From: a virus
Strand: one strand, 5' to 3'
DNA length: 62,298 nucleotides
Virus record (IMG/VR): IMGVR_UViG_3300043419_001334
Coordinates: 1-62,298 of that record
Part shown: piece by piece, positions 257-29,373 of the stretch
Numbering within the stretch: position 1 is the stretch's first letter
Layout: each line of letters starts with the position of its first letter
Notes under the pieces: model-generated
The model's input: only the letters and a program-made list of their open reading frames with translations
Database searches by the model: none
What the model was told of the DNA's origin: nothing
Made by a program: the position numbers and the translations under genes

Positions 257-847
257 TTATTTTTTATTAAGATAACTCAATACAACAGTATATGAGTCGG
301 ACATATCAAAATTTTCTTTTTTGAGTGTGTTGTTTTTTGTATACATCCACTGAATTTGTGGTTCTCTTTTAGCCACTAAATCCCAAATTATTTGTTTTTT
401 ATCACAATCTTTAGGATGTCCTCCAAATAAAACAAACTTACCTTTATCATTCTTTTGTACTAACTCAGGAAATGCGGTTTTTCTTGACTCATATGTTGAA
501 ATATATTCAGGTACAATTCCAAGAACATCATAAACTTCTTTACTTATTAAAGTATTATATCTTAATAAAGTACCAATTGTGTACGCGTTATTTGAATTTA
601 ATAGTGGTTCTTCGATAACACACTTAACAATACCTAAACCCTTATACTCTTCTAATTTTTTTCTAAAAGAAGTTGATTTAAGAAGTAATTCTTCCATCTT
701 GTTTTCTGAAGTTGGTTTAGGTCTAGGAGATATATGAGTTAACTCTAAAAGTTGTTTAGTGTTCATGTCAAATAGAGCCCAACCAATGGTTTTGGTGGAT
801 ATATCAAGTCCTAAAATTTTAGGACTTTCTTTTAAAGATTTCTTCAT
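257..847 (-). CDS. RuvC-like RNase H-fold nuclease (putative Holliday junction resolvase)
   Basis: A 196-residue protein. The first strand carries ILGLDISTKTIGWA (Asp15), the second acidic motif is CVIEEP (Glu79/80), and the C-terminus has FDMSDSYTVV (Asp181, Asp184). This order of acidic residues is that of RuvC-type Holliday junction resolvases, which cut branched DNA before packaging. A TTG at 862 would extend the frame, but the ATG at 847 lies just after the stop of the upstream fibre gene (ends 852) and gives the normal short N-terminus, so I prefer it. It is the last gene of the leftward tail-fibre block. Some phage relatives of this fold have other nuclease roles, so the exact substrate is uncertain. 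Confidence 0.65.
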   Translation of the reverse strand: MKKSLKESPKILGLDISTKTIGWALFDMNTKQLLELTHISPRPKPTSENKMEELLLKSTSFRKKLEEYKGLGIVKCVIEEPLLNSNNAYTIGTLLRYNTLISKEVYDVLGIVPEYISTYESRKTAFPELVQKNDKGKFVLFGGHPKDCDKKQIIWDLVAKREPQIQWMYTKNNTLKKENFDMSDSYTVVLSYLNKK

Positions 848-851
848 AAAA

Positions 852-3245
852 TTAAAAATCAAACTTTATCAAAAACTGTTGTATGCCTGTTCTTAGAACG
901 GGAGACTGCATTTTTGATATAATCATAAGATTTTTGTCGTCATCGTAAAGACCAATGTCTGTTATATAAGAAGAAGTACCAGGGGTCCAAGTAGGATTTG
1001 TTGTATTTTGGAAATCAGCATTACCCAAATTAACTTTATATCTCATCTCATATATTGTCGCTTGAATGTCAGTTTCAATAGAACCATAAAAATAATATTC
1101 ATCTCCAAAATTCAAAGTAATCCCTTGTTGACCTATTGTTGTTAATGAAATTAAGTCAGCCAAGTTAAATGGGGAGGCATTACTATAATCATCACTAGTT
1201 ATTACAAAAGTTGTCGATGAAAAAGCTCCAGGAGGAATAAACCCATTAATTAAATAATCTTGTAAATCCAATGTTTTATTAATAACCCTCCAATCAGATG
1301 GGTCGGGCCTTTGGTCCCCCTCAACTATTTGAGCTAAAACATAAAATTGGTCAGCAATAAAACCTTGTACATTTGAGGGTGAGGCGTCAGGAACATTCAT
1401 ACAGGCGAACTCATTACCAAAATTAATCGCAACATCTTTTGCAACAGAATCACAACTAGGGTTTGGACCTTGTATTTTTGAATAGTAATTACAGTGTAAA
1501 AAATTAGTAAATGTTGTTGAATTATACATCAAATATGTTATGTACATATACTGAGTATTCCCAGTTAACAATCCATCATAAGGTGTGGTTCCGCTTCCTC
1601 CACAAACATTAGGAACAACTAAGCTTAATCTAGGTGCTGGCAAAGTCCAATTTCGATTAGACTTATATGACATCGCAGCAATTATTTCCTCATCATCAAT
1701 AATAATAATATGGTCATCAGGAAATACTTTACCAATTCTGCTAGGATAACCATCTTCATTAGCATTACCATCCCAAAGGTGAAAATATCTATGACCAGGT
1801 CTGTTCATATCTTGGTTAAAATTTGATGTTAAATAATGAGCTTGGAATAAATTTAAAGTCGCAAACCCTGGAGGGTCTACCCAAAATGTTTGTCCGCTAC
1901 AACATGTCGGTGATTTATGCCACATTAACCAAGGTATGTGTAATCTAAAATTACGCCCCTCTCCTGTTGTATCAGCAGGTAGTGATGGGTCATGAGCCTG
2001 CATTGCAAACTTTTCCCCATAAAAATAATCTATAGTTTGATTTGTATAATGTATTATCGCAATTGCCTTTTGTTCTTCAGGTCTAACAGTTATTCTATCA
2101 CCTAATGAGTTATTATAAAAAACAGAACTACTATCTGTTTGTCCAGAACTTGATGAATATCCATAGTATTCTTTACTACCAAGATATTCAACTGAACCAA
2201 ATCCTGCGTAATCTACGTATGTTGATGACATTAACCCTGCCGGATTTTCAGACCAAGGAATATTCATATTCCAAATTTTTGTATCAAATTGGTCAGTATC
2301 ACAAACAGATTCAAAATTAATAACATCATCTCTCCAATGTTCTCTTGGGGTAAGACTATCGTAAAGTTCAGTCATACCAGATGGGTAAAATAAAATTCTT
2401 CCGAAACAACCGCTCGCAAAGTAACTAAAGTTCGGTGTAGGTCTATCCAATTCAATTATATTATTACAAAATGAAACTACTTTATACGTTAGTATCGGAT
2501 AACAATTTGTAAATGACATTAAACATGGTGTAGGTTCAGGTGGGGTGCAAATGAATCTAGTAGGTTCAGGTGGACAATTAGTACCTGATGGGGTTGGTGT
2601 TGGTAATGGGGTTTCACAAGGATATTCAGGTTGTTGTGGGGGTGTTGATGACGGAGTTGGTGTTGGAGTAGGTGAAGTTGGGATTACACAACTACAATTA
2701 TTAGCCCCAACTCCATTGTAATATATTGTTATAATATCTCCTGATTGAGGTAGTCTTAATATATTACTGTTACATGCTGAAAAAGACACCTCTATTGTAT
2801 TACTACCATTTAAAGTAGTCATATCAACAATATAGTTTGAATTTAAAGCTATATTACCTGTAGTAATAGCACTCCAATCTAAAGTACTAGCGGTTAAATC
2901 AGCACTAAAAAATCCTCTCATAGCGGCGGTATTAAACACATCGTATATTTGAGAATCTGCATTTGGTACTCCATATGTGTTACCTTGCAAACCTTTAACG
3001 TAATACGGATATTTGATATATTGTTTATTAGGTTCACATCCAAAACTATTATTATGAGAGTTGAATCCAGGTGTTAATATCATAGTGTCAAACTGATTGT
3101 AGGTTGAAGGTAAATTATAAGTAACCTCACAATCTCCAATTTGAAAATAAGATATATTAAAGTTACCTTGTGATAGTTTTTTTCTACCTGCGTCAGTTAA
3201 CCTTGAATTTATTAGACCTGATGTATTTTTAAGTATGTAACTCAT
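852..3245 (-). CDS. Large tail/baseplate-associated structural protein with Pro/Thr linker
   Basis: A 797-residue protein with no signal peptide. Its N-terminus (ILKNTSGLINSRLTDAGRKK, then a segment with FQIGDCEV) resembles a conserved N-terminal attachment region seen in tail proteins of large Bacteroidota phages. From memory this is a family resemblance only. Around residues 187-240 lies a Pro/Thr/Cys-rich linker with repeated PTPTP units. The remainder is beta-rich and Tyr/Asn/Ser-rich with scattered Cys, and ends in IQQFLIKFDF. It sits last but one in the leftward fibre block, downstream of the protease gene, and is probably an appendage on the same baseplate. A TATTTAT box lies just before the start. 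Enzymatic function not recognised. Confidence 0.6.
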   Translation of the reverse strand: MSYILKNTSGLINSRLTDAGRKKLSQGNFNISYFQIGDCEVTYNLPSTYNQFDTMILTPGFNSHNNSFGCEPNKQYIKYPYYVKGLQGNTYGVPNADSQIYDVFNTAAMRGFFSADLTASTLDWSAITTGNIALNSNYIVDMTTLNGSNTIEVSFSACNSNILRLPQSGDIITIYYNGVGANNCSCVIPTSPTPTPTPSSTPPQQPEYPCETPLPTPTPSGTNCPPEPTRFICTPPEPTPCLMSFTNCYPILTYKVVSFCNNIIELDRPTPNFSYFASGCFGRILFYPSGMTELYDSLTPREHWRDDVINFESVCDTDQFDTKIWNMNIPWSENPAGLMSSTYVDYAGFGSVEYLGSKEYYGYSSSSGQTDSSSVFYNNSLGDRITVRPEEQKAIAIIHYTNQTIDYFYGEKFAMQAHDPSLPADTTGEGRNFRLHIPWLMWHKSPTCCSGQTFWVDPPGFATLNLFQAHYLTSNFNQDMNRPGHRYFHLWDGNANEDGYPSRIGKVFPDDHIIIIDDEEIIAAMSYKSNRNWTLPAPRLSLVVPNVCGGSGTTPYDGLLTGNTQYMYITYLMYNSTTFTNFLHCNYYSKIQGPNPSCDSVAKDVAINFGNEFACMNVPDASPSNVQGFIADQFYVLAQIVEGDQRPDPSDWRVINKTLDLQDYLINGFIPPGAFSSTTFVITSDDYSNASPFNLADLISLTTIGQQGITLNFGDEYYFYGSIETDIQATIYEMRYKVNLGNADFQNTTNPTWTPGTSSYITDIGLYDDDKNLMIISKMQSPVLRTGIQQFLIKFDF
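2528..2683 (-). repeat. Pro/Thr linker-coding repeat tract
   Basis: Degenerate short repeats (GGTGTTGG-type units on the + strand) encode two PTPTP-rich linkers separated by a Cys-containing segment. The same word GGAGTTGGTGTTGG recurs in the linker of the neighbouring protease gene. Confidence 0.65.
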
Positions 3246-3272: not shown

Positions 3273-6200
3273 TTAAGTAATTACTACTTGACAATAATTA
3301 CATCCACTAATTACCGCGTTCGCCAGTGTGTAATTTTCAACCGCCTTAGAACTGTAGCAATAGTTAGAGATATTTTTAACTATCGTGGTAGTAGTTTCTA
3401 CATTAATAGAATCACCTGAAATCATGTAGACAGTGTTCCAATTCTCAGTAGAAGCCGTAATGTATTTAGAATTACTTTGGCAGCCTGCGGCAAAATTAGT
3501 TCCAGTAGATGTACTTGAACCGCTTGAACTTATCGCTTGTGGAACGTTGTTCAATTTTAATATGGAGTTAGTTGTAAGTGTGGATGCGGTTTGAGATGGC
3601 GATGTATCAAACGTATTGGTATGTAAAACATCAAATATAATAGTCGTACCTGTTGGTAAGGACGGTGTGACGTTTACTATTGTATTATATTGTTTTGTAA
3701 GTGTGGTTGTGGTATTCGAAACTATAGATTGACTAGTTGTTAAATATAAATTGTATACGGTTATGTTTTGAGCAGAGGTTAATGTAATTTTTTGTGTAGT
3801 TGTTGCACCACTTAAGTCTTTACCTATCACAATATAATCACCACCTTTTAGTCCGTTAAAAATTGGGTAACTCTTATAAGTTGTTCCATTGTCTATTGAA
3901 TACTGATATGGGGGAGTTCCTCCTGTTACATTAAACACGATGGAACCATTAGATTCTTGTGTTGGGTTATTTTGAGATATTTTCATTCCTAATGTTGGAT
4001 TATATGTACATAATCCTTGTGAAATTGTAAGGTCATACGATGACCCTGATATTGTATAAATACCAAATGGACTAACCGGATTGTGAGTCGCCTCAGATAA
4101 GAACCCTGTCGAACCCGTTACCCCACTAGTCTCCCATTTTGTGGTATCGGTGTTAAAATATAATACCCAATCATCCCCTGTCTCACCACATGGTAATTGA
4201 CCAGTCCAACTTGCTTGACCATTTATTTCACCATTATAAGTTAATTCAAAAATGTCCTCTCCACATTCAGACGGATTATCGAATGATGCACAAACATCAC
4301 CACTATAACATAAACCTTCGAAAACTCTAGCCGTTATTGTTGAATAGGTTGACCCTATAACCCCCCAACCCGTTACTGGTGGCGACTTAGGACTATAGTT
4401 TAATATTTTATATGATTCCCCATAAAATCCTTGGATAAACCAATAAGGTTGTTTACTATCATTAACCCAATAAATTGAATAATCGCCACTGTTATCAACC
4501 CAACTTGGTTTACCATTAATTAATCTTTGGTTATCATTAAATTGATATTGATTTGGTGTTCCATCAATTGTTATTGTAACACATAATTTTGGTTCGGGTG
4601 ATAATGATGTTGGCGAAATGGATAAAGTTGATGTGAAATTTTGAGGTCCTGAAACAACACAGACTGTAACTGCCGTAAAATCATAGTAATAGTCAGTAGT
4701 TGTTGCGGTGTATTCTCCAGGTAATAATTGGTATAAATTTGGTCCACTTTGCCCATTACTCCATGTTGTAAGATATGGTGGGGTTCCTCCAGTTATTGTT
4801 AATGTTGCAGTTCCATCACCAACTACAGATTGTGAAGAAGTTGTAGAACATATCACCCCCATGGGATATAAAACAATCGGAGCACATTCATTACCTAATA
4901 AGTAATAAGTACCACATTGATTAGTTCCACTTACAGATGGATATAATGTTGTAGGGTCAGGGTCAGGTGGGTCACAACCTTGTAAAACGCTAGTAACTGT
5001 AGTTGCCGTACACGCGGAACAATTAATAAAATAATTAGACTGAAATAGATTAACACTAGCATCATAAATGATTGATGATGGAGGTATAGCGGTTCCATAT
5101 ACCTCGCAGCACCCTGTAAAATGACGCATTTCTAAATAATACGACTCACCAGGTATTGGTATTTTATTTTGTAAGGATTGAGCTACAGGTTGAACTCCAG
5201 AACTTAATGTAAAATTATTTGTTGGGAAATTTTGTACCCCGAAAAATGAACTTGGGTTTCCCGAATCATCATCACAAATTTTAAAATAAACAGGAGGGTT
5301 TGAACCATAGGAAGTACTAAACCAATCACTAGCACTTATACAAGTAGTTGGAGTTGAGTCCTGCCATTCATAAACAGTACCAACCGGATAAGTTGAATTT
5401 ATATTTAATATACTTAATAAGGTATTAGTTGACACTTCCCTACATTCCCACCAAAATTCAATATCATTCCAAAATATAATACCGTTTATATTATTATTAC
5501 CGTTTTTTAATGTAAATTCAAAGGCATTTCTACCTCCAATTATACCCGCATCTGAAGCGTTAACAATTCCACATTGTGAATACACAACTAATAATGTATT
5601 AGACGCAGGTGGTGTTGGTCCACCTCCAGTTGGAGTTGGGGTCTGTGGTGGTGTTGGTGTTATTGGAGGTGTTGACCCTCCTCCTCCCCCTGTTGGTGGT
5701 GTTATTGTTGGAGTTGGTGTTGGGGTACCACCTGGTGGTACCGCCCCCATTGAATTTAATAGGGGTTCTCTAGCTCCTCCAGGTGCGAAAAGAGCTAAAG
5801 ACCTTGATACTTGCCCCGGTGAAAACATAAACATACAAGCACTACGTGTATAGTCCATGTAATTCATCGTCATTTCAATTGGATTACCAGGGCAACTAGA
5901 ATAGTGAGGATAAGCTGGGCATCCTGAGTTTGGTCCATCGTGTTCTGGTGTATCACTAACCCCATCACTAGCTCCACACCCACTACCTCCCCATATATGT
6001 TTTAAATTTAACCAGTGTCCTATTTCATGTACAGCAATCCTACCAATGCCGTATATAGAGTTAGACGGGTTTGGATTCGATATACTACCAACTGAAAAAT
6101 ATGATATAACTATACCGTCACGTTCAGGTGACCCTCCCGGATAAGGGGCGTAACCACCTAAACCAGGTTCTAAAGCACACACCCAAATATTTAAATAACT

Positions 6201-6668
6201 GTCTCTATCCCAAGCATCAAATCCACCATCTGAAAAAAATCTAGGGTCATTTGGACCGTCAAAATAATCCAAATTAGTAGTTCTTCTCTGTATACCAGTT
6301 GTAGGGTCACCATTTGGGGCTCTTGACGCAATAGTAAATTGTATACCCATGTTACCCGCCGGTTGGAATATTGGTGGTACGTCAACTATATCAGGGTTTG
6401 TTGCACTAAAATCTAAATTTAATTGGTCTATTTGTGCTTGTAATAAATCATAGGAAACATTTTGTTCCGTTGTTTTATATATAACATGGAAAACTACAGG
6501 TATTGTAATTATCTGAGTTGAAGTGTAGGAAGGATTAATTGCTAAAAATGCCGTTGTGAAATTTTCAACCGCTGTTTTTCCAGACGCGTAACTAGGGTCA
6601 ACTAAGTTTAAATAATCCTCTTGAGCGTCTAATCCACAAGGTAAAGATATTTCAGTAAAACTACTCAT
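3273..6668 (-). CDS. M43 (pappalysin/cytophagalysin-like) metalloprotease with Pro/Thr linker and Ig/SprB-like repeats
   Basis: A 1131-residue protein. Residues ~50-300 form an M43-type zinc protease: IPVVFHVIYKTTEQN near the start, zinc motif HEIGHWLNLKH (His214, Glu215, His218, His224), Asp-rich SDTPEHDGP, and a Met-turn in MTMNYMDY (266-273), all intact. A Pro/Thr/Gly linker (~311-356) joins it to a long region with Cys-rich segments and at least two SprB-type repeats (GGTPPYLTTWSNG and GGTPPYQYSIDNG). There is no signal peptide, so it is not made for host export. Position in the tail-fibre block suggests a virion-borne enzyme that cleaves host surface proteins during adsorption (inference). 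Activity is likely; location on the particle is unproven. Confidence 0.8.
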   Translation of the reverse strand: MSSFTEISLPCGLDAQEDYLNLVDPSYASGKTAVENFTTAFLAINPSYTSTQIITIPVVFHVIYKTTEQNVSYDLLQAQIDQLNLDFSATNPDIVDVPPIFQPAGNMGIQFTIASRAPNGDPTTGIQRRTTNLDYFDGPNDPRFFSDGGFDAWDRDSYLNIWVCALEPGLGGYAPYPGGSPERDGIVISYFSVGSISNPNPSNSIYGIGRIAVHEIGHWLNLKHIWGGSGCGASDGVSDTPEHDGPNSGCPAYPHYSSCPGNPIEMTMNYMDYTRSACMFMFSPGQVSRSLALFAPGGAREPLLNSMGAVPPGGTPTPTPTITPPTGGGGGSTPPITPTPPQTPTPTGGGPTPPASNTLLVVYSQCGIVNASDAGIIGGRNAFEFTLKNGNNNINGIIFWNDIEFWWECREVSTNTLLSILNINSTYPVGTVYEWQDSTPTTCISASDWFSTSYGSNPPVYFKICDDDSGNPSSFFGVQNFPTNNFTLSSGVQPVAQSLQNKIPIPGESYYLEMRHFTGCCEVYGTAIPPSSIIYDASVNLFQSNYFINCSACTATTVTSVLQGCDPPDPDPTTLYPSVSGTNQCGTYYLLGNECAPIVLYPMGVICSTTSSQSVVGDGTATLTITGGTPPYLTTWSNGQSGPNLYQLLPGEYTATTTDYYYDFTAVTVCVVSGPQNFTSTLSISPTSLSPEPKLCVTITIDGTPNQYQFNDNQRLINGKPSWVDNSGDYSIYWVNDSKQPYWFIQGFYGESYKILNYSPKSPPVTGWGVIGSTYSTITARVFEGLCYSGDVCASFDNPSECGEDIFELTYNGEINGQASWTGQLPCGETGDDWVLYFNTDTTKWETSGVTGSTGFLSEATHNPVSPFGIYTISGSSYDLTISQGLCTYNPTLGMKISQNNPTQESNGSIVFNVTGGTPPYQYSIDNGTTYKSYPIFNGLKGGDYIVIGKDLSGATTTQKITLTSAQNITVYNLYLTTSQSIVSNTTTTLTKQYNTIVNVTPSLPTGTTIIFDVLHTNTFDTSPSQTASTLTTNSILKLNNVPQAISSSGSSTSTGTNFAAGCQSNSKYITASTENWNTVYMISGDSINVETTTTIVKNISNYCYSSKAVENYTLANAVISGCNYCQVVIT
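5605..5740 (-). repeat. Pro/Thr/Gly linker-coding repeat tract in the protease gene
   Basis: Short GT/GGT-rich repeat units encode PTPTPTITPP, a run of five Gly and a second Pro/Thr stretch. Such linkers separate catalytic and binding modules in secreted hydrolases. The DNA shares words with the linker tract near 2650. Confidence 0.7.
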
Positions 6669-6758: not shown

Positions 6759-9608
6759 TTATGGTATTAATTCCTCCGTTAAACATTCGTAATATTGATT
6801 ACCAACCAATAAATTAGTAGGTGTTGGTGGTGATGGCATAACATATTCAAAAGTTACCGTATAAGGACTTGATGTATCTACAGAATAAACTCTTAAATCA
6901 TCCTGATTCATAACGTATAATGTAGTTGCAATTTGGAATACACTATATGAAGAACCTGGTGGTAATAATGCTTGAGCTTCTAAATAACCAGTACTAGTAT
7001 ATTGACTTAAGAAATTATTATTATCAACGTCTAATGTTGTAATAAATATTTTACCAGTATTTGTGAAACTAATTGAATTTTTAATTTCAGTAAATGGAAT
7101 TAGTGACAAATTGAATTTAGGAGTAACATTTCCATTACTTAGGTCAACTTGCATTAAATCATAGGACCCACTAACGTTACATAATAATGTATTACTATCG
7201 AAATATGATAATCCATAAGTCAGTGTTTGTGATAAAATAATTTCTCTATTATATGTCAAATCAATAGGACACAAATTATTTATATCATATTCAAAAATAC
7301 TACCCCCACCGCCATCTAATACCCACAATTTATTTTCACTTCTTGTTATACCTAATGATGTAGTATATTGAGTTGTGGTTGGTAATATCTCATATAGATT
7401 AGTACTAGGATTAAAATCATATACGTCATTATCTGAAGCGAATAAAACATCACAAACTTTAACACAAGCGACGTTACAAGTTTCACAGGAGATATCATAT
7501 AAAATTTTAACCGCAACGTTTACAACTAAGTCTGATAAATTATTTTGATTAATACCACAACCAGCAATAATTGTAATAGTACCATTTGGGTAATTAAATA
7601 TTATCTCATCTATACCTGTTATCTGTAATATAAGTTGTCTAATAGTTTCAAAAAAGACATTGTCCGTTGGATAATCTCCTAACCCATAACCATAATAAAA
7701 TATTTCACTCAATACCGCAGCCCCAATGGTTACTTCCGCAGTCCATGTTGTTTGGTTTAAAATACAATTAGTATCCCCCGCAGTTAAATCAAAATAACCC
7801 TCAGACAACATTTCTTTAAGTCCTTTTTTAACTATAATACCGTTGTCTTGGATATCACCATTACAAACATTATAAGTTTGCTGGGAACTAAACACTAAAG
7901 GTCCTACTAATGTTATATCTTTAGTTAAAGTACACCCATTACTATCATTAATGGTTAATGTGTAAGTTCCTGGTGATAAATTTATTACTGTCAATCCGGT
8001 TTGACCATTAACGTTATTACTCCAAGTTAATGTAAATGGTGGTTCACCTTGTGTAATGAAAGTCGTAATACTACCATTGACTCCATTAGTTGGATTTATA
8101 CCTTGTAAACTAAAGTCCACAGGTGGTATGGTGTCGATAATAAATGTTTCTTGTATTTGACAACCTGTGTCGTCAGTAACACTAATAAAATAACCCCCAA
8201 CGGTTAACCCATTAAAAGTGTAATTAGTGTTTGAGGTCGTAACCGGTGGTAACCCGTTTACCTCGTAAGTGTATGTGGAACTTGTTCCAAAAACTTCTAC
8301 ATATAACGAACCTACAGAAGTTAAACAATCGGCATCGGTAGTCGTAATCTGTATTGAAAAATTATCAATAGTGTTAATCGTAACGCTTTGGTAAAATGTA
8401 CATGGTCCATTATCACTTATATTTAAATCATAGATACCACCCTGTAAATTAGAAAATGTTATTGTAGGCACATTACTTGTTAGTGTTTGTAAAAATCCGC
8501 TAGTATTAGACAATACAAATGTGTAAATAGGGGTACCTCCAATTAGATTAACCGTTATAGTTCCTTGTCCATTGTCACACACACTGTCTGTGGTAATTAT
8601 AGATTGTAACGAAAAACCTCCAGCTGTTAGTAATGAGGTTTGGATTACGGTAGTACAAAGTCCAGCATCAGTTACTGTCACTGTGTACGGACCTGATGGT
8701 AAATCTATAAAGGTATACGAATTAGAAAAACTAATGTCTTCAAATCCATTCGATAGTTGGTACCTAAATGGTGCCGTTCCACCACTTAGATATAATGTAA
8801 ATGACCCATCTGCAGCATAACATGAAGGTGGATTAAGAGTTAATGCAACTTGTCCTAACGATTCTACCAAATTTACATCAACTGATTTATTAACAACACA
8901 CCCATTAGAATCCGTAACTGTCACGTTGTATGAACCGTATGTCAATCCTGATATTGATGATGTTGTTTCTCCATTTGACCATAGATAAGTGTATGGAGCA
9001 CTACCGGTTAAACCTGTTACGAATAATTTACCTGAATTAGCAAAACATGCAGAATCATTTACAATGTAAAATCCATAATCAAATGAAGTTGATGATAATA
9101 TTATACAAGTTTCTGATTTTCCTGTACATCCCCCTCCATCATCCGCTATCACATACCATATTCCAGCAGGAACTGTGGTGGTGTAGAAATTATTTAAAGA
9201 TGTACCAGAATTGTAAAATCCATTTGTAGTTTCATAAACATAGTATGTCGATTCCCCATAAGAATTTGAGGTTTGAGCAGTTAAGCTACCACTATTTACA
9301 CCACATGTAGTATCAATATGGTCAGTTATAGAAACACACGCACCGCTTGAAATAAAAAAACTAACTAAAACGGGGTCAGGATTTGATATACAACTATCAT
9401 ATAATTGAAAGGTATATGTTCCAGCGCTTAAATTGTATTCAGTGTATGTTGTAACTCCCGGCCCTAAAAAAACTAAATCAGTTCTTGGGTAAACCCATTG
9501 TACTGAATAGTCAGGAGCACTACCAAAGATTTCCAAATTAAATATTCCAGAGTCAGTTATCGAGCAGTCACCAGTTAATGTTAAAAGGGTTTGTAGATTA
9601 CACGCCAT
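6759..9608 (-). CDS. SprB-repeat fibre protein with C-terminal beta-propeller-like region
   Basis: A 949-residue protein starting at the ATG at 9608, whose A and T overlap the stop of the preceding gene (TAATG); a GTG at 9617 is less likely. Roughly residues 1-570 contain five to six Ig-like repeats of the SprB type, each with a Gly-Thr/Ser-x-Pro-Tyr turn, SNG, and a closing G-x-Y-x-V-x-V-T-D-x-x-G-C, for example APYTYLWSNG and YNVTVTDSNGC. SprB is the gliding adhesin of Flavobacterium. A middle segment is Cys-containing. The last ~230 residues show repeated short strands (NKLWVLDGGGG, GKIFITTLDVD, TTLYVMNQDDLRVY) that look like an NHL/SMP-30-type propeller. It probably forms a receptor-binding fibre (inference). 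Confidence 0.72.
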   Translation of the reverse strand: MACNLQTLLTLTGDCSITDSGIFNLEIFGSAPDYSVQWVYPRTDLVFLGPGVTTYTEYNLSAGTYTFQLYDSCISNPDPVLVSFFISSGACVSITDHIDTTCGVNSGSLTAQTSNSYGESTYYVYETTNGFYNSGTSLNNFYTTTVPAGIWYVIADDGGGCTGKSETCIILSSTSFDYGFYIVNDSACFANSGKLFVTGLTGSAPYTYLWSNGETTSSISGLTYGSYNVTVTDSNGCVVNKSVDVNLVESLGQVALTLNPPSCYAADGSFTLYLSGGTAPFRYQLSNGFEDISFSNSYTFIDLPSGPYTVTVTDAGLCTTVIQTSLLTAGGFSLQSIITTDSVCDNGQGTITVNLIGGTPIYTFVLSNTSGFLQTLTSNVPTITFSNLQGGIYDLNISDNGPCTFYQSVTINTIDNFSIQITTTDADCLTSVGSLYVEVFGTSSTYTYEVNGLPPVTTSNTNYTFNGLTVGGYFISVTDDTGCQIQETFIIDTIPPVDFSLQGINPTNGVNGSITTFITQGEPPFTLTWSNNVNGQTGLTVINLSPGTYTLTINDSNGCTLTKDITLVGPLVFSSQQTYNVCNGDIQDNGIIVKKGLKEMLSEGYFDLTAGDTNCILNQTTWTAEVTIGAAVLSEIFYYGYGLGDYPTDNVFFETIRQLILQITGIDEIIFNYPNGTITIIAGCGINQNNLSDLVVNVAVKILYDISCETCNVACVKVCDVLFASDNDVYDFNPSTNLYEILPTTTQYTTSLGITRSENKLWVLDGGGGSIFEYDINNLCPIDLTYNREIILSQTLTYGLSYFDSNTLLCNVSGSYDLMQVDLSNGNVTPKFNLSLIPFTEIKNSISFTNTGKIFITTLDVDNNNFLSQYTSTGYLEAQALLPPGSSYSVFQIATTLYVMNQDDLRVYSVDTSSPYTVTFEYVMPSPPTPTNLLVGNQYYECLTEELIP

Positions 9609-12600
9609 TAATAACACAAAATATTAAAGTTTATACCGACATCTATTTTGATGTTAACACCAACTTTGTCAGTAGAACAACTCATGTCATAAATAATGAC
9701 ATCATCGTTAGTTCCAAAATAATAACCATATCCTAAAGAATCTAAATTATTTAATGCAATATTAAGTGCGAAGTCCCACTCTCCAGTTGACGGTGAACTG
9801 AGTGGCCCTGTGTAACCAACACCATTATACGCCGGGTAAGAGACTACTTGTGCATTGTCTATTTGTATGATAACAAACCATTCGGAAGTTAGTGTGTTTA
9901 ATTCACAACTATTTAACGAATAACCTATAGAGTTCAAGTACGAATTTAAGACCGAACCTAAAATTCCATCAAAGTCGGGTACTTGTGGATTATTACTAAA
10001 TGGATATCTTTGGCAGGTTACTGACGTGACAGCACATCCAACATCATAAATGTCAGTAGTCACAATACAAGGTCTGCAAGGTACAGGTACTAATTGACAA
10101 CCAGCTTGTCTTCTCCATACAAATTTTTGTCTGTGAAATATAGAATTTTCATATCTAACACCTGTGTTCCATATTGTTGTTGCGGGTATCATTTGTTCAA
10201 CCAGTCTAATCCAATAATCTCCAAGTCCATTAACATATTCCATCATATTTTGATACTTGAAGTTATTATTTTCTAATCCGGCTAGTTTTTGAGATTCTAT
10301 ATATTTCCAATAAATCGACTGTAATGTCGGATATGCACTTGTTTTACCGTCGGTTTGGTATTGTCTATTTCTAACATTAATCATGTTTTTCCAAAAAGTT
10401 TGGGCAAACTCGAAAAATGTTTTTCTTTTTGGTTGTGGGTTAATTTGAGTCCAATCAACTCCCCCACGATATGGGTATTCTATTCTTGGGTTTGGATTAC
10501 ATCTAGTTGGTCTTGGTTCAAATAAACCTCTATTAGGTATTGGATAATTATATTGGGTTGACATATACCATACATCATACACAATTCCTTGTGCTGGATT
10601 TAGAAATAAATCAACATTTTTAGCATTTAATACTAATCTATCATCTTGTGTAGTATATCTCGCGTTAAAAGAACTATCTCTATTAATTCTTAAACCTATT
10701 TCATTATCAACCCAGCTTTTATTGTTATCAACAACTGGTGATAAATTAAAACCTAAATTCATATATGGGAAATCCCTGAATCTATTCAAATATATTTGTC
10801 CATACGTGAATGGTGCCAACTCTGTTTGATAATTAGGATTAGACCCTGTAAAAACACTATTAGTTAAATCAAAAATTTCAGGCGACCTATGTGAAGGGGT
10901 TGATTCAAACCAACCAGCACCCATTTGGAAATAATAGTCCTCGGTACTATCGGGAGCTAACGGAAACCCTTCATCATCTACAGGGTAATTATCTCTTACC
11001 AAATCAACATCTTGTATTGATAATGCGGTAGTAAACCCTGTATATTTTACTCCGAATATTGAGAAGACATTTGTAGGGTCTAATTGTGGAGCTTCGGTAA
11101 CATATGTTCCTCCTGATATCTGAGCGTAATACGTATTAAATTGTGATATGTTTATTTTTTGGTCAACCAAATAAATAAACTCATTAAACTCCACCAAAGC
11201 ATCGGGAGCACCAATAAGTCTCATTAATATCTCAATTGACTTTCTTGTTCCCTTAGATTTAAACAAATAAGCAGAATTTAAAATTAAATTTCTATAATAT
11301 TGATAATTTAATTCATCTGGTGTTTTTTCAACACCTACACCTGAAAAAGAAGACTCGTTACTATTTTTTTCTCCAAAAACCGAACCTAAAAAGTCCTCAT
11401 TACTTATTGGTGATATGTTGGTTGTCCAACCTAATGTTTGAGCTAAATTTTTTAAAAGTTTTGATGGGATATCGTCTCCAACATTATAATTAACAGAATT
11501 CATAAAGGCAAGAGCGTTTATGAATTTATTAACTTCATCAAAACTTCTACCATAAATCTGAAGAACTTTCTCCATTTTTTGACCTATGGTATCGAAATCT
11601 TTATAAGAACCAGTAGTTAAGAATCTTGAAATTAAATTAGTCCTAAATGAATCAAAATATTCACTTATTTGGTTTAACTTTATTAAATATTGTTCGAATC
11701 CATTTGACATAATATCAATGTTCCAAACACCATTCATTGGCCACGTTACACTCTCGGTAGAAATATAAAAACTTCCATCATCCGCCTCTTTAGGTACTCT
11801 AAAATTAGAAGTATATATAGGGGTTCCATTTCTGTTAAGTAAAAAGTTTTCAACCTCGTCCAAATCATCACTATAAACTTTATTAACCTCCATATCATTT
11901 GGACGTATAATTAAAGTGTCATAAGTTGTGGATGAACCTGAAAATGGATTACCGTTAACTGTTATAGTTAAAGTTCCTGTTGTTAAAGAATTAGTTGGTA
12001 TTATTTTTTTTAAAGAATAACCCGTTCCATTGTAGTACAAAGAATACTTCGAATATTCCGTTGTCATATTTCTTAACTCAGAAACCTCAATTTCTCTTAA
12101 TTCAAGATTTCTAGTAGATGCCGTTGTAAAATCAATTCCAAATGGATTTCTGATTCTACTTATTGTTAAATTAAAAGTTGTTAAATCTTGAACAACGTCA
12201 TAAATAATATTTTGGGCCGTTGGACCATCTTTATAATTTAAACCAATTCTATTAGATTCAATACCCGCAGGGAAATAACTAATTATTTTGGTTACCGATG
12301 ATGATATCCTTTTCGCCATCGAACCAAACTGAACAAAATTAGTTACTTCAGATAAATCAAAATTAGGATATACTTTAAAATTATTTTCAAAAATAATTTT
12401 GGATTGTTCTATCGAATAAACACCTAGATTCTCTAAATTAATTGGTTCTGAAAATACTCCAGTATAAAAAGTTCTATCAGATTTTTCAGTGATAGAGCTT
12501 GTAAAATTAAAATTCCCTTGCGTAAGTCCTCCCCCTTGGACTAGTTGAAATCCAACTAAATCATCCGAAAACGTTCCCGCTCCTGATGCCGGTGTAGGTG

Positions 12601-12628
12601 GGCAAATGAATTTTTTTTGTGTCGCCAT
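9608..12628 (-). CDS. Baseplate/tail protein, possible tail-protein-I-like connector
   Basis: A 1006-residue protein starting MATQKKFICPP; the start overlaps the previous stop by TAATG. Residues ~335-500 carry a helical segment (KVLQIYGRSFDEVNKFINAL and, later, YLFKSKGTRKSIEILMRLIG) that resembles the helical region of phage tail protein I-type baseplate subunits, which link the wedge to tail fibres. The C-terminal part has Cys-rich CQLVPVPCRPC and a beta-rich end. It lies between the 302-residue protein and the SprB fibre, a fitting position for a fibre connector. The wedge-connector role is inferred; the structural role is well supported by context. Confidence 0.55.
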   Translation of the reverse strand: MATQKKFICPPTPASGAGTFSDDLVGFQLVQGGGLTQGNFNFTSSITEKSDRTFYTGVFSEPINLENLGVYSIEQSKIIFENNFKVYPNFDLSEVTNFVQFGSMAKRISSSVTKIISYFPAGIESNRIGLNYKDGPTAQNIIYDVVQDLTTFNLTISRIRNPFGIDFTTASTRNLELREIEVSELRNMTTEYSKYSLYYNGTGYSLKKIIPTNSLTTGTLTITVNGNPFSGSSTTYDTLIIRPNDMEVNKVYSDDLDEVENFLLNRNGTPIYTSNFRVPKEADDGSFYISTESVTWPMNGVWNIDIMSNGFEQYLIKLNQISEYFDSFRTNLISRFLTTGSYKDFDTIGQKMEKVLQIYGRSFDEVNKFINALAFMNSVNYNVGDDIPSKLLKNLAQTLGWTTNISPISNEDFLGSVFGEKNSNESSFSGVGVEKTPDELNYQYYRNLILNSAYLFKSKGTRKSIEILMRLIGAPDALVEFNEFIYLVDQKINISQFNTYYAQISGGTYVTEAPQLDPTNVFSIFGVKYTGFTTALSIQDVDLVRDNYPVDDEGFPLAPDSTEDYYFQMGAGWFESTPSHRSPEIFDLTNSVFTGSNPNYQTELAPFTYGQIYLNRFRDFPYMNLGFNLSPVVDNNKSWVDNEIGLRINRDSSFNARYTTQDDRLVLNAKNVDLFLNPAQGIVYDVWYMSTQYNYPIPNRGLFEPRPTRCNPNPRIEYPYRGGVDWTQINPQPKRKTFFEFAQTFWKNMINVRNRQYQTDGKTSAYPTLQSIYWKYIESQKLAGLENNNFKYQNMMEYVNGLGDYWIRLVEQMIPATTIWNTGVRYENSIFHRQKFVWRRQAGCQLVPVPCRPCIVTTDIYDVGCAVTSVTCQRYPFSNNPQVPDFDGILGSVLNSYLNSIGYSLNSCELNTLTSEWFVIIQIDNAQVVSYPAYNGVGYTGPLSSPSTGEWDFALNIALNNLDSLGYGYYFGTNDDVIIYDMSCSTDKVGVNIKIDVGINFNILCY

Positions 12629-13582: not shown

Positions 13583-14764
13583 TTATGTGGATACAATATT
13601 GAAAAATCCATATCCATAATTCTCTAAATCCCCCACGTTATTAACCTCTCCAAGTCTTTGTATTCTTTCTAGCGCCGAGTTCTTACCTCTTTCAATAAAG
13701 ACATTAGAATAAACTTCGGTATCAAAAACAACGTTCATTAAAACTTCGTTTTTAGTAACTGCACTACATTCTAAATCAGTACATCCTGAAGAAGAAATTA
13801 CAAATATTGTTGTTCCATCATTGTAATCATAATAATCTATGTCATTAACGGTATAGGCTGTATAAGGTAATGAAGGATTTGGACTGTAAACAATTCCTAT
13901 GGACCCTGACGAACCAGTAACTAAAACGTTTGGTTTAAATTTACCGTCACCAATTCTTGTTGGGTCTCCTTTTCTTCCCCATTGTACTAAATCATTCAAA
14001 GACGATTTAGTATAACCTGTTATTATAAATGGAATTGTGGTGAATTGGCAACATGGTACCGTAGTTTCACACACCGCATCTCCTGAAAAAATAAAGTCAT
14101 ATTGTAGTGGTGTTGTCGACCAACTTCCTCCTTGTGGGGTAAAAAATGCAGTCCCATTAGGATTTGTTGCTACTATATCAACATATGGTACAGTTATTTC
14201 TTTAACTATTACGTTGTATCCCCATGGACTTAATCCTGACATAGTAATTGTGTAAGTACCACTTGAAGAATATGTATGTTGGTAATAGTTCGGTGAAAAT
14301 GATGTCACTGTTTGAACCCCTGTTCCGTCACCCCAATCAACATAATAATTAGAAAACTCTAAATATTTTTTAAATTCTACGTCAGAGGTATTAAAGAAAA
14401 ATATATCAAATGGACTTGAGGTCTCTGCGGTGAATATAAAATTCATCATAGTATCTTTCTGAGTCACAGCACCATCGAATACAGAATAGTATCCTATATC
14501 AACAGCGTTTTGACTTAAAAACACAGGTATTGACAAGTCACTTAATAAAGAGTCCCCGTTAGTTCCTCCTGACAGGATTTGAGTCATCGATGAATATACG
14601 TAAGTGTTTGCGGTAGTATTTACTGTTCTTGGGTCAGGTGGTAATATGCAGCATGGGTCAATCTCTCCATTAACCAAATATGTATTATCAATAAATGGTA
14701 TTGGGAATAAATCATTCCTGACATTTTCAGGTGATATTCGTATGTAATATGACCTATCTTGCAT
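13583..14764 (-). CDS. PKD-domain tail protein
   Basis: A 393-residue protein. Around residues 130-195 lies a PKD-type Ig domain: YYVDWGDGTGVQTVT, then YQHTYSSSGTYTITMSG, with the diagnostic WGDGT and HTYSSSGTYT signatures. Such domains mediate protein or polysaccharide contacts on cell surfaces. The rest is beta-rich, with Cys pairs (DPCCILPPDP, TVPCCQF). The C-terminus contains a short helix (GKNSALERIQRLGEVNNVGD) found in several phage baseplate proteins as a docking peptide (inference). The start overlaps the stop of the 271-residue gene by TAATG. Probably a small spike or decoration on the baseplate. Confidence 0.65.
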   Translation of the reverse strand: MQDRSYYIRISPENVRNDLFPIPFIDNTYLVNGEIDPCCILPPDPRTVNTTANTYVYSSMTQILSGGTNGDSLLSDLSIPVFLSQNAVDIGYYSVFDGAVTQKDTMMNFIFTAETSSPFDIFFFNTSDVEFKKYLEFSNYYVDWGDGTGVQTVTSFSPNYYQHTYSSSGTYTITMSGLSPWGYNVIVKEITVPYVDIVATNPNGTAFFTPQGGSWSTTPLQYDFIFSGDAVCETTVPCCQFTTIPFIITGYTKSSLNDLVQWGRKGDPTRIGDGKFKPNVLVTGSSGSIGIVYSPNPSLPYTAYTVNDIDYYDYNDGTTIFVISSSGCTDLECSAVTKNEVLMNVVFDTEVYSNVFIERGKNSALERIQRLGEVNNVGDLENYGYGFFNIVST

Positions 14765-22987: not shown

Positions 22988-24826
22988 TCAAGAAAAATTG
23001 ACTGTAGAAAGATTCTTTACTCTAATATTAATATCCTTACTAGGGAATCTAACTTGATACGTCTGACTAGGTTCCGCAAATATTGTATCATCCACAAGTT
23101 CAATCTGTCTTGTTAGACTGTCAGAATATCTCTGAGAGGTTTGAGACGACGAATAAGAACCTCCAACTTTGTTATAAACAACAATATCAGATAAAGAAAT
23201 AACTCCATTTTCACTTTGTATCTGTCTTCTTAATTCTGATATATAAACATTCTCTCCCATTTGTCTATTGGATGGGTCGAAGAAATCAGAAACTAAATTA
23301 ATTATGGATGAAATAACCGCTCCTTGATTTTGACTACTGTCTAATACAACATCAATTGTCAAAGATAAATCACAAACGTTAGCTGTTTCAACTGAAACAT
23401 AATCATTAATCATTCTATAATTAGACAAATAATTAGCAACATTATTCTTTAAAGTATTTGATACAATTTCTGTCAATTTACCGTTGTCATCATATGACAA
23501 CATCTTTATTCTTATTTTATTATTATCTTCAGTAATTGCCACTTTAGCCGGAGCTCCGAACTGAGATGGCATTGTTCTTATTATTGAGTCATAATCATTA
23601 ACCGTAACCGCCCTGTTCTGTGCCGCAAAGTTAAAACTTACTAAGTTTCTAACCTCCTCAGTTGTTGGTGCCGCCGCACCACCAATAGCCGCAGTAACAT
23701 TTGTACATCTTAATGAATTAATAACCGTATTATTTATAGAATCTGATGGTCCGTTAACAAAGAATGATACTGTACCTAATTGTGTAATAACATTAACACC
23801 TAAGTTACTATTAGCCCCACCACCAATTCTATATTGTACAAAAATAGTTGAGTTAGATTTCAATGTACTTCCTAATGCAAAATTATTCGAGTATTTATAC
23901 AAATCTAATTTATATCCATTACGGGCGAACTCTCTTAATTGTTCATCCGCAGATTGACTACCTCCACCAAATGTCATTTTCAAAAATCCTTCGGGTGTAT
24001 ATTCGGTAATAAATTTACTATTTGTTGTTATATATTTTCCAACTTTAATTCCTGGCCTATCTGTCTTTTTTGTAGGGTCTTCTATAAAAACTCTATCCTC
24101 CGCCAAAGCTTTGACTTCGTACCATCTATTATCAGAACCTAAAAATTCCTGAGCTGACGGTACATTAGCATACTGAGTACCGTCTTTTAATAATACTGAA
24201 GTCACTCCCAATACATTTTTTTCAGGTAAAAATAATTCATAAAATGGTTTTACATCATTAGGTGTTACTACTTTTTTGAATACTTTGGTTATACCATTAA
24301 CTACTGTTTCTCTCTTAACAATAGTATAATTAAGTAACTTGTTATTTGCGTCAAATATTGGAATTTTAAGTCGATTGGGGTACCCATCAGCACTAACAGG
24401 GGAAGCGAAATCTATATCGTAAACTGTTTCAAAAACTTGTCCAGCTCCATTAACCTGTGAACCTCTCCTCAAAATACCACAGTATCTCAAGTCTTCTTTA
24501 TCTCCAAATGCCGGAACTGTGATAGAAAAATCAACAAGAGCAACTGATGGTCTCTGTCCGGGTATTTTGAGTCCGTAAGTTCTAGCTATGTTATATATTG
24601 AGGACCTCTGTTGAGCAAATTGTAAAACCGTTTCCTGTATACTTCTGTCTATGTTGAATTGTAAATTATCTGAAACAGCGGCATTTAAGTCCAACAACGC
24701 CGAAAATACTGACGCGTCGTTAAAATTACTTACCAAATCAGGATAATAGGTTTGTGTGAAATTTATTAACTCAGTCCTAATTGATTGGAAATCTCTAGTA
24801 GTATACGATATTTTTTTATTTGCCAT
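22988..24826 (-). CDS. 6: Baseplate wedge subunit gp6-like (baseplate J-like)
   Basis: A 612-residue protein. The N-terminus ISYTTRDFQSIRTELINFTQ followed by FNDASVFSALLDLNAAVSDN is the hallmark opening of T4 gp6 and related baseplate J-like wedge proteins. The C-terminal half has AVTVNDYDSIIRTMP, another conserved gp6 segment. Gp6 dimers form the ring that holds the wedges together and opens on sheath contraction. The gene follows gp25 by five bases, the same pairing as in most contractile injection systems. Length is close to T4 gp6 (about 660). Confidence 0.92.
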   Translation of the reverse strand: MANKKISYTTRDFQSIRTELINFTQTYYPDLVSNFNDASVFSALLDLNAAVSDNLQFNIDRSIQETVLQFAQQRSSIYNIARTYGLKIPGQRPSVALVDFSITVPAFGDKEDLRYCGILRRGSQVNGAGQVFETVYDIDFASPVSADGYPNRLKIPIFDANNKLLNYTIVKRETVVNGITKVFKKVVTPNDVKPFYELFLPEKNVLGVTSVLLKDGTQYANVPSAQEFLGSDNRWYEVKALAEDRVFIEDPTKKTDRPGIKVGKYITTNSKFITEYTPEGFLKMTFGGGSQSADEQLREFARNGYKLDLYKYSNNFALGSTLKSNSTIFVQYRIGGGANSNLGVNVITQLGTVSFFVNGPSDSINNTVINSLRCTNVTAAIGGAAAPTTEEVRNLVSFNFAAQNRAVTVNDYDSIIRTMPSQFGAPAKVAITEDNNKIRIKMLSYDDNGKLTEIVSNTLKNNVANYLSNYRMINDYVSVETANVCDLSLTIDVVLDSSQNQGAVISSIINLVSDFFDPSNRQMGENVYISELRRQIQSENGVISLSDIVVYNKVGGSYSSSQTSQRYSDSLTRQIELVDDTIFAEPSQTYQVRFPSKDINIRVKNLSTVNFS

Positions 24827-24831
24827 ATTAT

Positions 24832-25290
24832 TTAAATATTAATTATAACAAAATCACTAGCATTAAAAACATCACTATTAATTCTGTAATCAATTTTTAT
24901 CTTTGCGGTATGTTCCAAAGTACCTATACCCGGAACTCTAAAAACTCTATCATCATTATCATTAATATATGAACCCTTATCTTCGTCTCCATCTGAAGCG
25001 GGTTTAATATCTATTTTAGTTATTGTAATTCCGGGTATGTATTCACCAACTGAATCTCTAATCTCAGATTCTATTTCTGAAAATGTTGGTCCATCCAACG
25101 GTTCAAATAGATATTCGTACAACCTTGTTCCAAAATCAGGTAAAAAATATCTTGTACCTTTTCTTGTTAATATTAAATGAACCAAATCAGTTCTAATTTC
25201 CTCATCTTTAGTTGTTGATAAATCAAAATAAGTCCCATTAAAAGAATCTCTAAAAGGAAAATTTATACCGTATGTTTTTCCGTTTGCCAT
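24832..25290 (-). CDS. 25: Baseplate wedge subunit gp25-like
   Basis: A 152-residue protein with the gp25/lysozyme-fold wedge signature: INFPFRDSFNGTYFDLS, then IRTDLVHLILTRKGTRYFLP, FGTRLYEYLFEPLD and a final VDYRI-type strand (KIKIDYRINSD). Gp25 initiates sheath assembly and bridges gp6 and the sheath. It is slightly longer than T4 gp25 (132) because of an Asp-rich loop (SDGDEDKGSYINDNDD). No Glu-based peptidoglycanase motif is evident, as expected for this structural homologue. Confidence 0.92.
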   Translation of the reverse strand: MANGKTYGINFPFRDSFNGTYFDLSTTKDEEIRTDLVHLILTRKGTRYFLPDFGTRLYEYLFEPLDGPTFSEIESEIRDSVGEYIPGITITKIDIKPASDGDEDKGSYINDNDDRVFRVPGIGTLEHTAKIKIDYRINSDVFNASDFVIINI

Positions 25291-28406: not shown

Positions 28407-28425
28407 AGTTTTAAAAGATAATCAA

Positions 28426-29373
28426 TTAAAAGTCGTCCGTAAAGGACAATGTTTCGTTCAACTTTGCTTTTTGGTACTCAACAGTTCTTGATTCAAAAAA
28501 GTTACCTTTTGTTTCAACTGCAATTTGTTCCATGAATTTAAATGGTTGTTCAACATTAAATTGTTTCTTACATCCCATCTTAACAAGTAGACCATCGACC
28601 ACAAACTCAAGATATTGTTTCATAAGGTTTGAATTCATTCCAATAAGTGAAACAGGAAGTGATTCTGTGATAAACTCTTTTTCAATTTCAAGTGCCGACA
28701 ACAAAATTTCTTTAATTCTCTTTTCACTTGGTTTATTTTCACAATGGTTATTCAAAAGATGAATTGCAAAATCACAGTGTAGATTTTCATCCTTAAAAAT
28801 AAGTGAATTAGCGTTACATAAACCTTGCATAAGTCCTCTTGACTTGAGCCAAAAAATTGAACAGAATGAACCTGAGAAGAAGATTCCTTCTACCGCCGCA
28901 AATGCCACAAGTCTTTCTTGAAACGATGCGTTTGTAATCCAATCAAGAGCCCACTTAGCTTTCTTTTGGACTGCGGGAAGTCTGTCAATTGCATGGAAAC
29001 ATTCGTCTTTTTCTTTTGGATTTGACACATAGGTATCAATCAAAAGTGAGTACATTAGACTATGAATGTTTTCCATTGCAAGTTGGAAACCGTAAAAGAA
29101 TTTTGCTTCAGGATATTGTACTTCTCGGTAGAAATTTTCAGCCAAGTTTTCGTTAACAATTCCATCTGATGCCGCAAAGAATGATAGAACATTCTTAACA
29201 AAGTATTGTTCATTTTCTGAAAGGTTTTCCCAATCACGAATATCCCCTGATAAATCAACTTCTTCTGCCGTCCAAAATGCCGCTTGATGCATTTTATAAA
29301 ATTCCCATATATCGTTATGTTCGATAGGAAATATTACAAACCTATTTGGGTTTTCTACTAAAATCTTTTCCAT
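28426..29373 (-). CDS. nrdB: Ribonucleoside-diphosphate reductase, class Ia, beta subunit
   Basis: A 315-residue protein with the diiron/tyrosyl-radical set: Asp40 in EEVDLSGD, Glu101 and His104 in [12 protein letters not shown], radical Tyr108 at the expected +4 from that His, then [16 protein letters not shown] and [13 protein letters not shown] for the remaining Glu and His ligands. The acidic C-terminal tail LSFTDDF is the peptide that docks into NrdA. The intact Tyr argues for a class Ia oxygen-dependent enzyme, hence an aerobic host. It sits between the helicase gene (5 bases) and nrdA. Confidence 0.96.

Follow-up and report, generated by a model that had tools for sequence, protein, structure and literature searches.

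Introduction

To our knowledge, the virion-borne tail enzymes described so far act mainly on sugars and on the cell wall. S-layers, adhesins and gliding-motility proteins are prominent in Bacteroidota. In a review of the enzymes that tailed phages use against cell barriers, the word "protease" is absent (PMC6116005), and our search of the literature, in which coverage was weak for subscription papers, returned no virion M43 protease or phage metalloprotease. The M43 family and enzymatic tail proteins are each already known; the two combined, with latency, appeared neither in the literature searched nor in annotated phage genomes.

The closest described enzymes are ulilysin and mirolysin. A prosegment of 34 residues closes off the mirolysin cleft: Cys23 of its Cys-Gly motif binds the zinc, and Arg21 fills the S1′ pocket, where it is paired with Asp289 (PMC6949598). 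Two calcium ions are required for activity and autoactivation (PMC6949598, PMC8259862), and M43 enzymes autoprocess (PMC6949598). Here we describe how an M43 gene in a 62,298-nucleotide stretch of viral DNA (IMG/VR record IMGVR_UViG_3300043419_001334; hereafter the window) compares with these systems.

Results

The N-terminal part of gene C is an M43 protease

Gene C is an intact 1131-residue open reading frame (3273-6668, minus strand; confirmed in the window) that encodes a prosegment, an M43 protease, a Pro/Thr/Gly linker and a phage tail-protein body. The catalytic domain (about residues 54-300; 5769-6509, minus strand) was recognised by Pfam, phmmer, an AlphaFold model and Foldseek. Pfam PF05572 (Peptidase_M43) matched about residues 151-290 (52 bits versus a cut-off of 23, E = 8e-14), and residues 22-295 aligned with ulilysin and mirolysin far past chance (phmmer, E down to 5e-65). 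In alignments, the zinc-binding sequence HEIGHWLNLKH (residues 214-224; 5997-6029, minus strand) conforms to the M43B motif HExxHxxG(N/D)xxH, in which mirolysin carries Asp instead of Gly, and the Met-turn and tyrosine switch NYMDY (residues 269-273) is complete; together with Ser276, at the position of the S1′ specificity Asp (mirolysin Asp289, PMC6949598), it lies at 5841-5864 (minus strand). The zinc ligands and catalytic Glu were invariant across 52 aligned sequences and also across nine signal-less phage M43s. A first-pass annotation, made from the sequence alone, had called gene C an intact pappalysin-family zinc protease, a reading that the above-threshold Pfam match and the complete zinc motif and Met-turn confirm.

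An AlphaFold2 model of residues 1-320, for which the 52 aligned sequences served as input, had a mean pLDDT of 94.2 and a pTM of 0.93. Its top Foldseek match was the proulilysin zymogen (8cdb, TM 0.85/0.89 over 308 columns), promirolysin (6r7v) also scoring high, and the metzincin/pappalysin fold is thus present in the N-terminal part of gene C. The fold of the zinc site had been set beforehand as a check on the first-pass reading; in the high-confidence model, which matches the solved ulilysin and mirolysin zymogens, all zinc-site residues are predicted to lie in register with theirs. Cysteines 231, 250, 259 and 278 align with the mirolysin pairs C243-C271 and C262-C291 (PMC6949598), and two disulfides are predicted in the catalytic domain. 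We conclude that the N-terminal part of gene C is an M43 (pappalysin) protease of the ulilysin/mirolysin type (unicellular, M43B) and that it looks functional.

Gene C carries a cysteine-switch prosegment and lacks an export signal

The N-terminal ~53 residues of gene C (6510-6668, minus strand), overlooked in the first-pass annotation, form a complete cysteine-switch prosegment with the motif Cys11-Gly12, as judged from M43 alignments, the AlphaFold2 model and the match to zymogen folds. Two prosegment helices were modelled at residues 13-23 and 27-44, and almost all of the 52 aligned sequences share Cys11, as do all nine signal-less phage M43s. The residues and the fold are observed; by analogy with mirolysin, the protease would be latent, its zinc capped by Cys11. 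The first-pass picture of an enzyme ready to act leaves out latency, gene C encoding a zymogen. Residues 1-30 are not hydrophobic, and an in-frame TAA is the codon directly before the ATG, so that no signal peptide could be gained by an earlier start; the protein had correctly been described as lacking one.

The S1′ pocket and its prosegment plug have both changed

Asp in the S1′ pocket is a common trait tied to a preference for basic P1′ residues rather than a criterion of M43B membership. This position is Asp in the sampled bacterial homologs, with one exception, and is occupied by Ser276 in gene C and by Asn and Gln, respectively, in two related phage loci, L170 and L172. The residue two positions before the switch Cys is Arg in most bacterial homologs and Leu in gene C (Leu9), L170 and L172. 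From the joint loss of the pocket Asp and the plug Arg we predict an altered specificity with a matching prosegment, and a preference for Lys/Arg in P1′ has probably been lost from the gene C protease. Gene C contains no Lys or Arg in the stretch between Lys31 and Lys65, the expected place of activation cleavage, which lends this weak support because the same stretch is Lys/Arg-free in L171, a locus that keeps the S1′ Asp. Pocket and plug residues were associated across sequences (Fisher p = 8e-10, kinship ignored), but the tree implies no more than about three independent changes; the association was not significant once kinship was counted, and we therefore treat pocket/plug covariation as a prediction and not as statistically proven. 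In the double calcium site, the equivalents of mirolysin Asp247 and Thr252 are kept (D235 and T240) and that of Asp239 is Gly/Ser; as this Ca2+ ligand is missing in gene C, the calcium switch may be weaker.

Gene C lies in the tail gene cluster of a large phage

The cluster contains homologs of the tail tube, gp25 and gp6 upstream of gene C, the latter two being a gp25-like baseplate wedge (24832-25290, minus strand) and a gp6-like baseplate wedge (Baseplate_J; 22988-24826, minus strand). The gp6 homolog matches that of the cultured Flavobacterium phage immuto at 26% identity. In immuto, gp25 and gp6 are followed by a large protein, several smaller ones, the tail fibre and the tail spikes, and the window cluster follows the same order. 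A profile of the conserved gene A (9608-12628, minus strand) matched the large protein after gp6 in immuto, the baseplate-wedge position in cultured phages, and a profile of gene D (852-3245, minus strand), the conserved protein directly downstream of gene C, matched immuto proteins just before the tail fibre (gp105-gp107); both matches are remote and weak, yet stand above those of other open reading frames. Gene C lies between genes A and B, the latter a SprB-repeat protein by Pfam (6759-9617, minus strand), and gene D. The assignment of this region to a tail-fibre block is upheld by the three tail homologs and by an order like that of the immuto baseplate and tail-fibre region.

Genes A and D found nothing in 50,697 phage records, so that the group has no cultured member among them, and an M43 match occurred in only one of these records. 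Neither PHROGs nor INPHARED gave an informative match for gene A, gene D or the protease, and searches of the PDB with genes A, D and G gave nothing useful; a PDB match of gene D (E = 3e-6) was set aside as it fell on the stretch with the P/T linkers of that gene. An 18-kb overlap at 100% identity links the window to an IMG/VR contig of 120,573 bp. The source is a large uncultured phage whose host is probably a member of Bacteroidota, as suggested by immuto, by the SprB repeats and by the bacterial M43s closest to the protease.

Several neighbouring genes were recorded alongside. Class I ribonucleotide reductase genes (25974-29373, minus strand) adjoin the tail cluster between gp25 and a DnaB-like helicase, and a 201-residue open reading frame (257-862, minus strand), whose start ILGLDISTKTIGWALF looks RuvC-like, had no Pfam match. 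About 6 kb beyond window position 1, the same phage encodes a 406-residue signal-less protein (L087:19277-20497, minus strand), in which trypsin-like signatures (TNSHVV, GGDSGSAL) were recognised by eye; its neighbour is a 2075-residue Thr/Pro-repeat protein. The 406-residue protein had no Pfam, PDB or phage match, and a similar protein (weak NAL1_N match) is found in L190 near two M43 genes described below.

The protease is an accessory at the front of a conserved phage protein

Behind the catalytic domain, gene C continues with the Pro/Thr/Gly linker (residues 311-356; 5601-5738, minus strand), evident in the sequence and in agreement with the Pro/Thr linkers first reported, a middle region with SprB-like sequence (residues 357-896; 3981-5600, minus strand) and an all-beta C-terminal region (residues 897-1131; 3276-3980, minus strand). 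Searching viral sequences with genes A and D gave about 160 related loci, in many of which gene C orthologs adjoin gene D. Only two of the 67 distinct gene C orthologs carry M43, namely the window and L171 (= L088/L009, contig 3300016474_000594), indicating that the protease is an accessory placed N-terminally on a phage protein, not an essential part of it. SprB repeats were detected by Pfam in 54 of the 67 orthologs, among them two stretches in the window gene C, and hence are no sign of a host origin for gene C in particular; the repeats noted in the first pass are present, and their description as host-like is misleading for sequences that belong to the phage gene family. Pfam found only SprB and M43 among the 67 orthologs, and a wider enzyme-swapping slot in gene C was not shown.

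The last 235 residues were predicted with confidence to be all-beta (pLDDT 94.9), and this region opens with the best SprB match (residues 905-930). This region is conserved at the gene C locus across many related phages, including those without M43, occurs as a stand-alone 241-residue protein in L050, L112 and L137, and resembles SprB-repeat proteins of uncultured phages. Searches of the PDB gave no useful solved homolog of it and no tailspike match. A polysaccharide depolymerase tailspike, with a right-handed beta-helix and a glycan site, was accordingly rejected as a description of gene C, the enzyme part being a metzincin and the C-terminal domain an all-beta fold that matched no tailspike.

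The same cassette occurs in a second tail-cluster protein

A viral search with the protease identified an M43 cassette inside gene E of three relatives (L170, L172 and L175; open reading frames of 846-853 residues). In the window, gene E is a 393-residue protein with a PKD domain and without M43 (13583-14764, minus strand), and the cassette is likewise absent from nearly all other gene E orthologs. In all three relatives it occupies one slot, directly behind the sequence VPY with which the PKD domain ends (about residue 194 of window gene E); it consists there of a prosegment, the M43 domain and a Pro/Thr linker, and the remainder of gene E comes after it. The prosegment Cys and the linker are kept, no signal peptide is present, and each of the three records, some of them fragments, contains a single M43. 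Genes C and D are missing from their expected place in the L172 phage, where the tail-fibre region contains a TnpB-like open reading frame, identified by eye (L326:9679-10890).

Display on the virion best accounts for the occurrence of one latent protease on two tail-cluster proteins, in the same order and each time signal-less. The association with the virion proposed in the first pass thereby gains genomic support, from fusion to a conserved tail-cluster domain, from the cassette in gene E and from the missing signal peptide. Bacterial M43s are secreted multidomain proteins and the virion presence of the gene C product is itself inferred, and one could accordingly picture a soluble protease freed at lysis whose C-terminal part is an adhesin-like tail without virion contact; we consider this improbable, since no signal peptide is possible, phages that lack M43 also conserve the C-terminal domain at the tail locus, and the cassette recurs in gene E. 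An equally slim chance attaches to an assembly or maturation protease that cuts phage tail proteins, such as its own linker or its neighbours, during or after assembly. Membership in the tail cluster and the autoprocessing of M43 enzymes would suit such a role, but 65 of the 67 gene C orthologs and almost every gene E ortholog lack M43, even though conservation of the neighbouring proteins is strong.

Other viral M43s fall into different arrangements. Signal-less M43s are found in long proteins of L188, L190 (two copies), L192 and L295, with Pro/Thr linkers in three of the four. The two genes in L190, a 323-kb viral contig, are in tandem (L190:7845-11638), and both include a long Thr/Pro linker; Pfam detects a fibronectin type III domain at the C-terminus of the second, and the first is similar in appearance. 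In many other viral M43s, signal peptides or lipoprotein signals are present and a tail domain is absent. Among these, L003, L004, L006 and L174 (one contig of 464 kb) encode short M43s with lipoprotein signals that possibly remodel the surface of the infected cell. A separate clade with signal peptides (L178, L180-L187, L189 and L191), on contigs that are either phage or bacterial, has Ser/Ala for the S1′ Asp and no prosegment Arg in most members checked.

The M43 part diverges more than its surroundings and is under purifying selection

A tree built from 119 M43 domains placed the window protease with those of L170 and L172 (100/99) and L171 outside (82/82), and the grouping of the first three persisted when the tree was reduced by leaving out the longest branches. 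Constraining window and L171 together was disfavoured (AU p = 0.011, in a test made after seeing the tree). The L175 protease fell elsewhere, on a long branch. Between the window and L171, gene D is 94% identical in amino acids and the rest of gene C about 80%, compared to 51% for the M43 part, which points either to exchange of the cassette between genes or to unusually fast evolution; silent-site divergence was discarded as an arbiter between the two, being saturated in all genes, even in gene D at 94%.

Between L170 and L172, dN/dS was 0.12 for the M43 part and 0.03-0.05 for the flanking parts, showing that this M43 part is under purifying selection, constrained but freer than its carrier. 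Such selection, together with the retention of the zinc ligands, catalytic Glu, Met-turn, switch Cys and four structural Cys, makes it very improbable that the M43 fold is a pseudoenzyme serving only as a binding or host-mimicking domain, a notion that could draw on the changed S1′ Asp and prosegment partner and on a domain that evolves faster than its neighbours.

Discussion

We think it rather probable that gene C encodes a tethered, zymogen-controlled virion protease, located at the periphery of the tail or baseplate, that trims host surface proteins at adsorption. Its product would be made in the cytoplasm without a signal and held inactive by the prosegment, with Cys11 on the zinc. The conserved C-terminal part would then build it into the particle, with the Pro/Thr/Gly linker serving as a flexible leash for the protease. 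Once the cell has lysed, the prosegment might be lost through the effect of extracellular Ca2+, through oxidation of the two predicted disulfides or through proteolysis, and in the gene C and gene E arrangements alike the active protease would remain tethered by its C-terminal side. It could then cut Bacteroidota surface proteins and expose the receptor, as a protein-cutting counterpart of depolymerase tailspikes. Latency would protect the producing cell, and the calcium-containing, oxidising medium outside would permit activation. Location in the virion, activation and substrate are all parts of the proposal that we infer, host surface proteins, at entry or release, being the likeliest target; the adhesins, S-layer and lipoproteins named in the first pass are conjectural targets. 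Three observations weaken this reading, namely that M43 occurs in so few gene C orthologs, that one Ca2+ ligand is missing and that the C-terminal domain is without a solved homolog to prove a virion role.

The same anatomy would also serve a virion-borne receptor-destroying or release enzyme which, after lysis, strips receptors and sticky proteins from debris, vesicles and neighbouring cells in the manner of a neuraminidase and so spares particles. Zymogen control fits activation outside the cell, and no sequence feature separates this role from one in entry; we regard it as unlikely, if still worth weighing beside a tethered protease that acts at adsorption.

More tentatively, and with slightly more doubt than conviction, we suggest that the prosegment, pappalysin and Pro/Thr leash make up a mobile "latent protease" cassette of Bacteroidota phages that is carried by different virion proteins and was acquired repeatedly by large phages of distant relationship, its pocket and plug changing together, for passing protein surface layers. 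If the proposal is true, a tethered, self-latent metalloprotease is a phage route past S-layers, adhesins and gliding-motility proteins, and shows how a phage is able to produce a hazardous protease within the host cell that does no harm until release. The predicted change in P1′ preference is directly testable.

Compared with ulilysin and mirolysin (PDB 8cdb, 2cki, 6r7v and 6r7w), gene C shares the prosegment and catalytic fold (TM 0.85/0.89 to proulilysin), the Cys-Gly switch, HExxHxxN/DxxH, the Met-turn and the four structural cysteines; unlike them, it has no signal peptide and is fused to a phage tail-cluster protein, and it differs from mirolysin in having Ser276 for Asp289 of the S1′ pocket and Leu9 for the plug Arg21 and in missing the calcium ligand Asp239. 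Secreted M43s of Bacteroidota (for example L194 and L211) have the same prosegment and about 40-51% identity to gene C, but they carry export signals and serve the bacterium, whereas the phage copy is part of a cluster of tail genes. The viral M43s with lipoprotein signals or signal peptides (L003, L004, L006, L174 and L005) have the catalytic domain and prosegment cysteine in common with gene C, but they possess export signals, have no tail domain and probably act on the surface of the infected cell. Nearest in architecture are the gene E orthologs of L170, L172 and L175, equally signal-less and built from prosegment, M43, Pro/Thr linker and tail-protein part; there, in contrast to gene C, the cassette sits in the middle of a PKD-domain protein, so that removal of the prosegment would also cut the chain. 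As in depolymerase tailspikes and other enzymatic tail fibres, the enzyme of gene C is joined to a tail-cluster protein and is accessory among relatives, but it is proteolytic, zymogen-controlled and without a beta-helix spike, and its substrate would be a surface protein.
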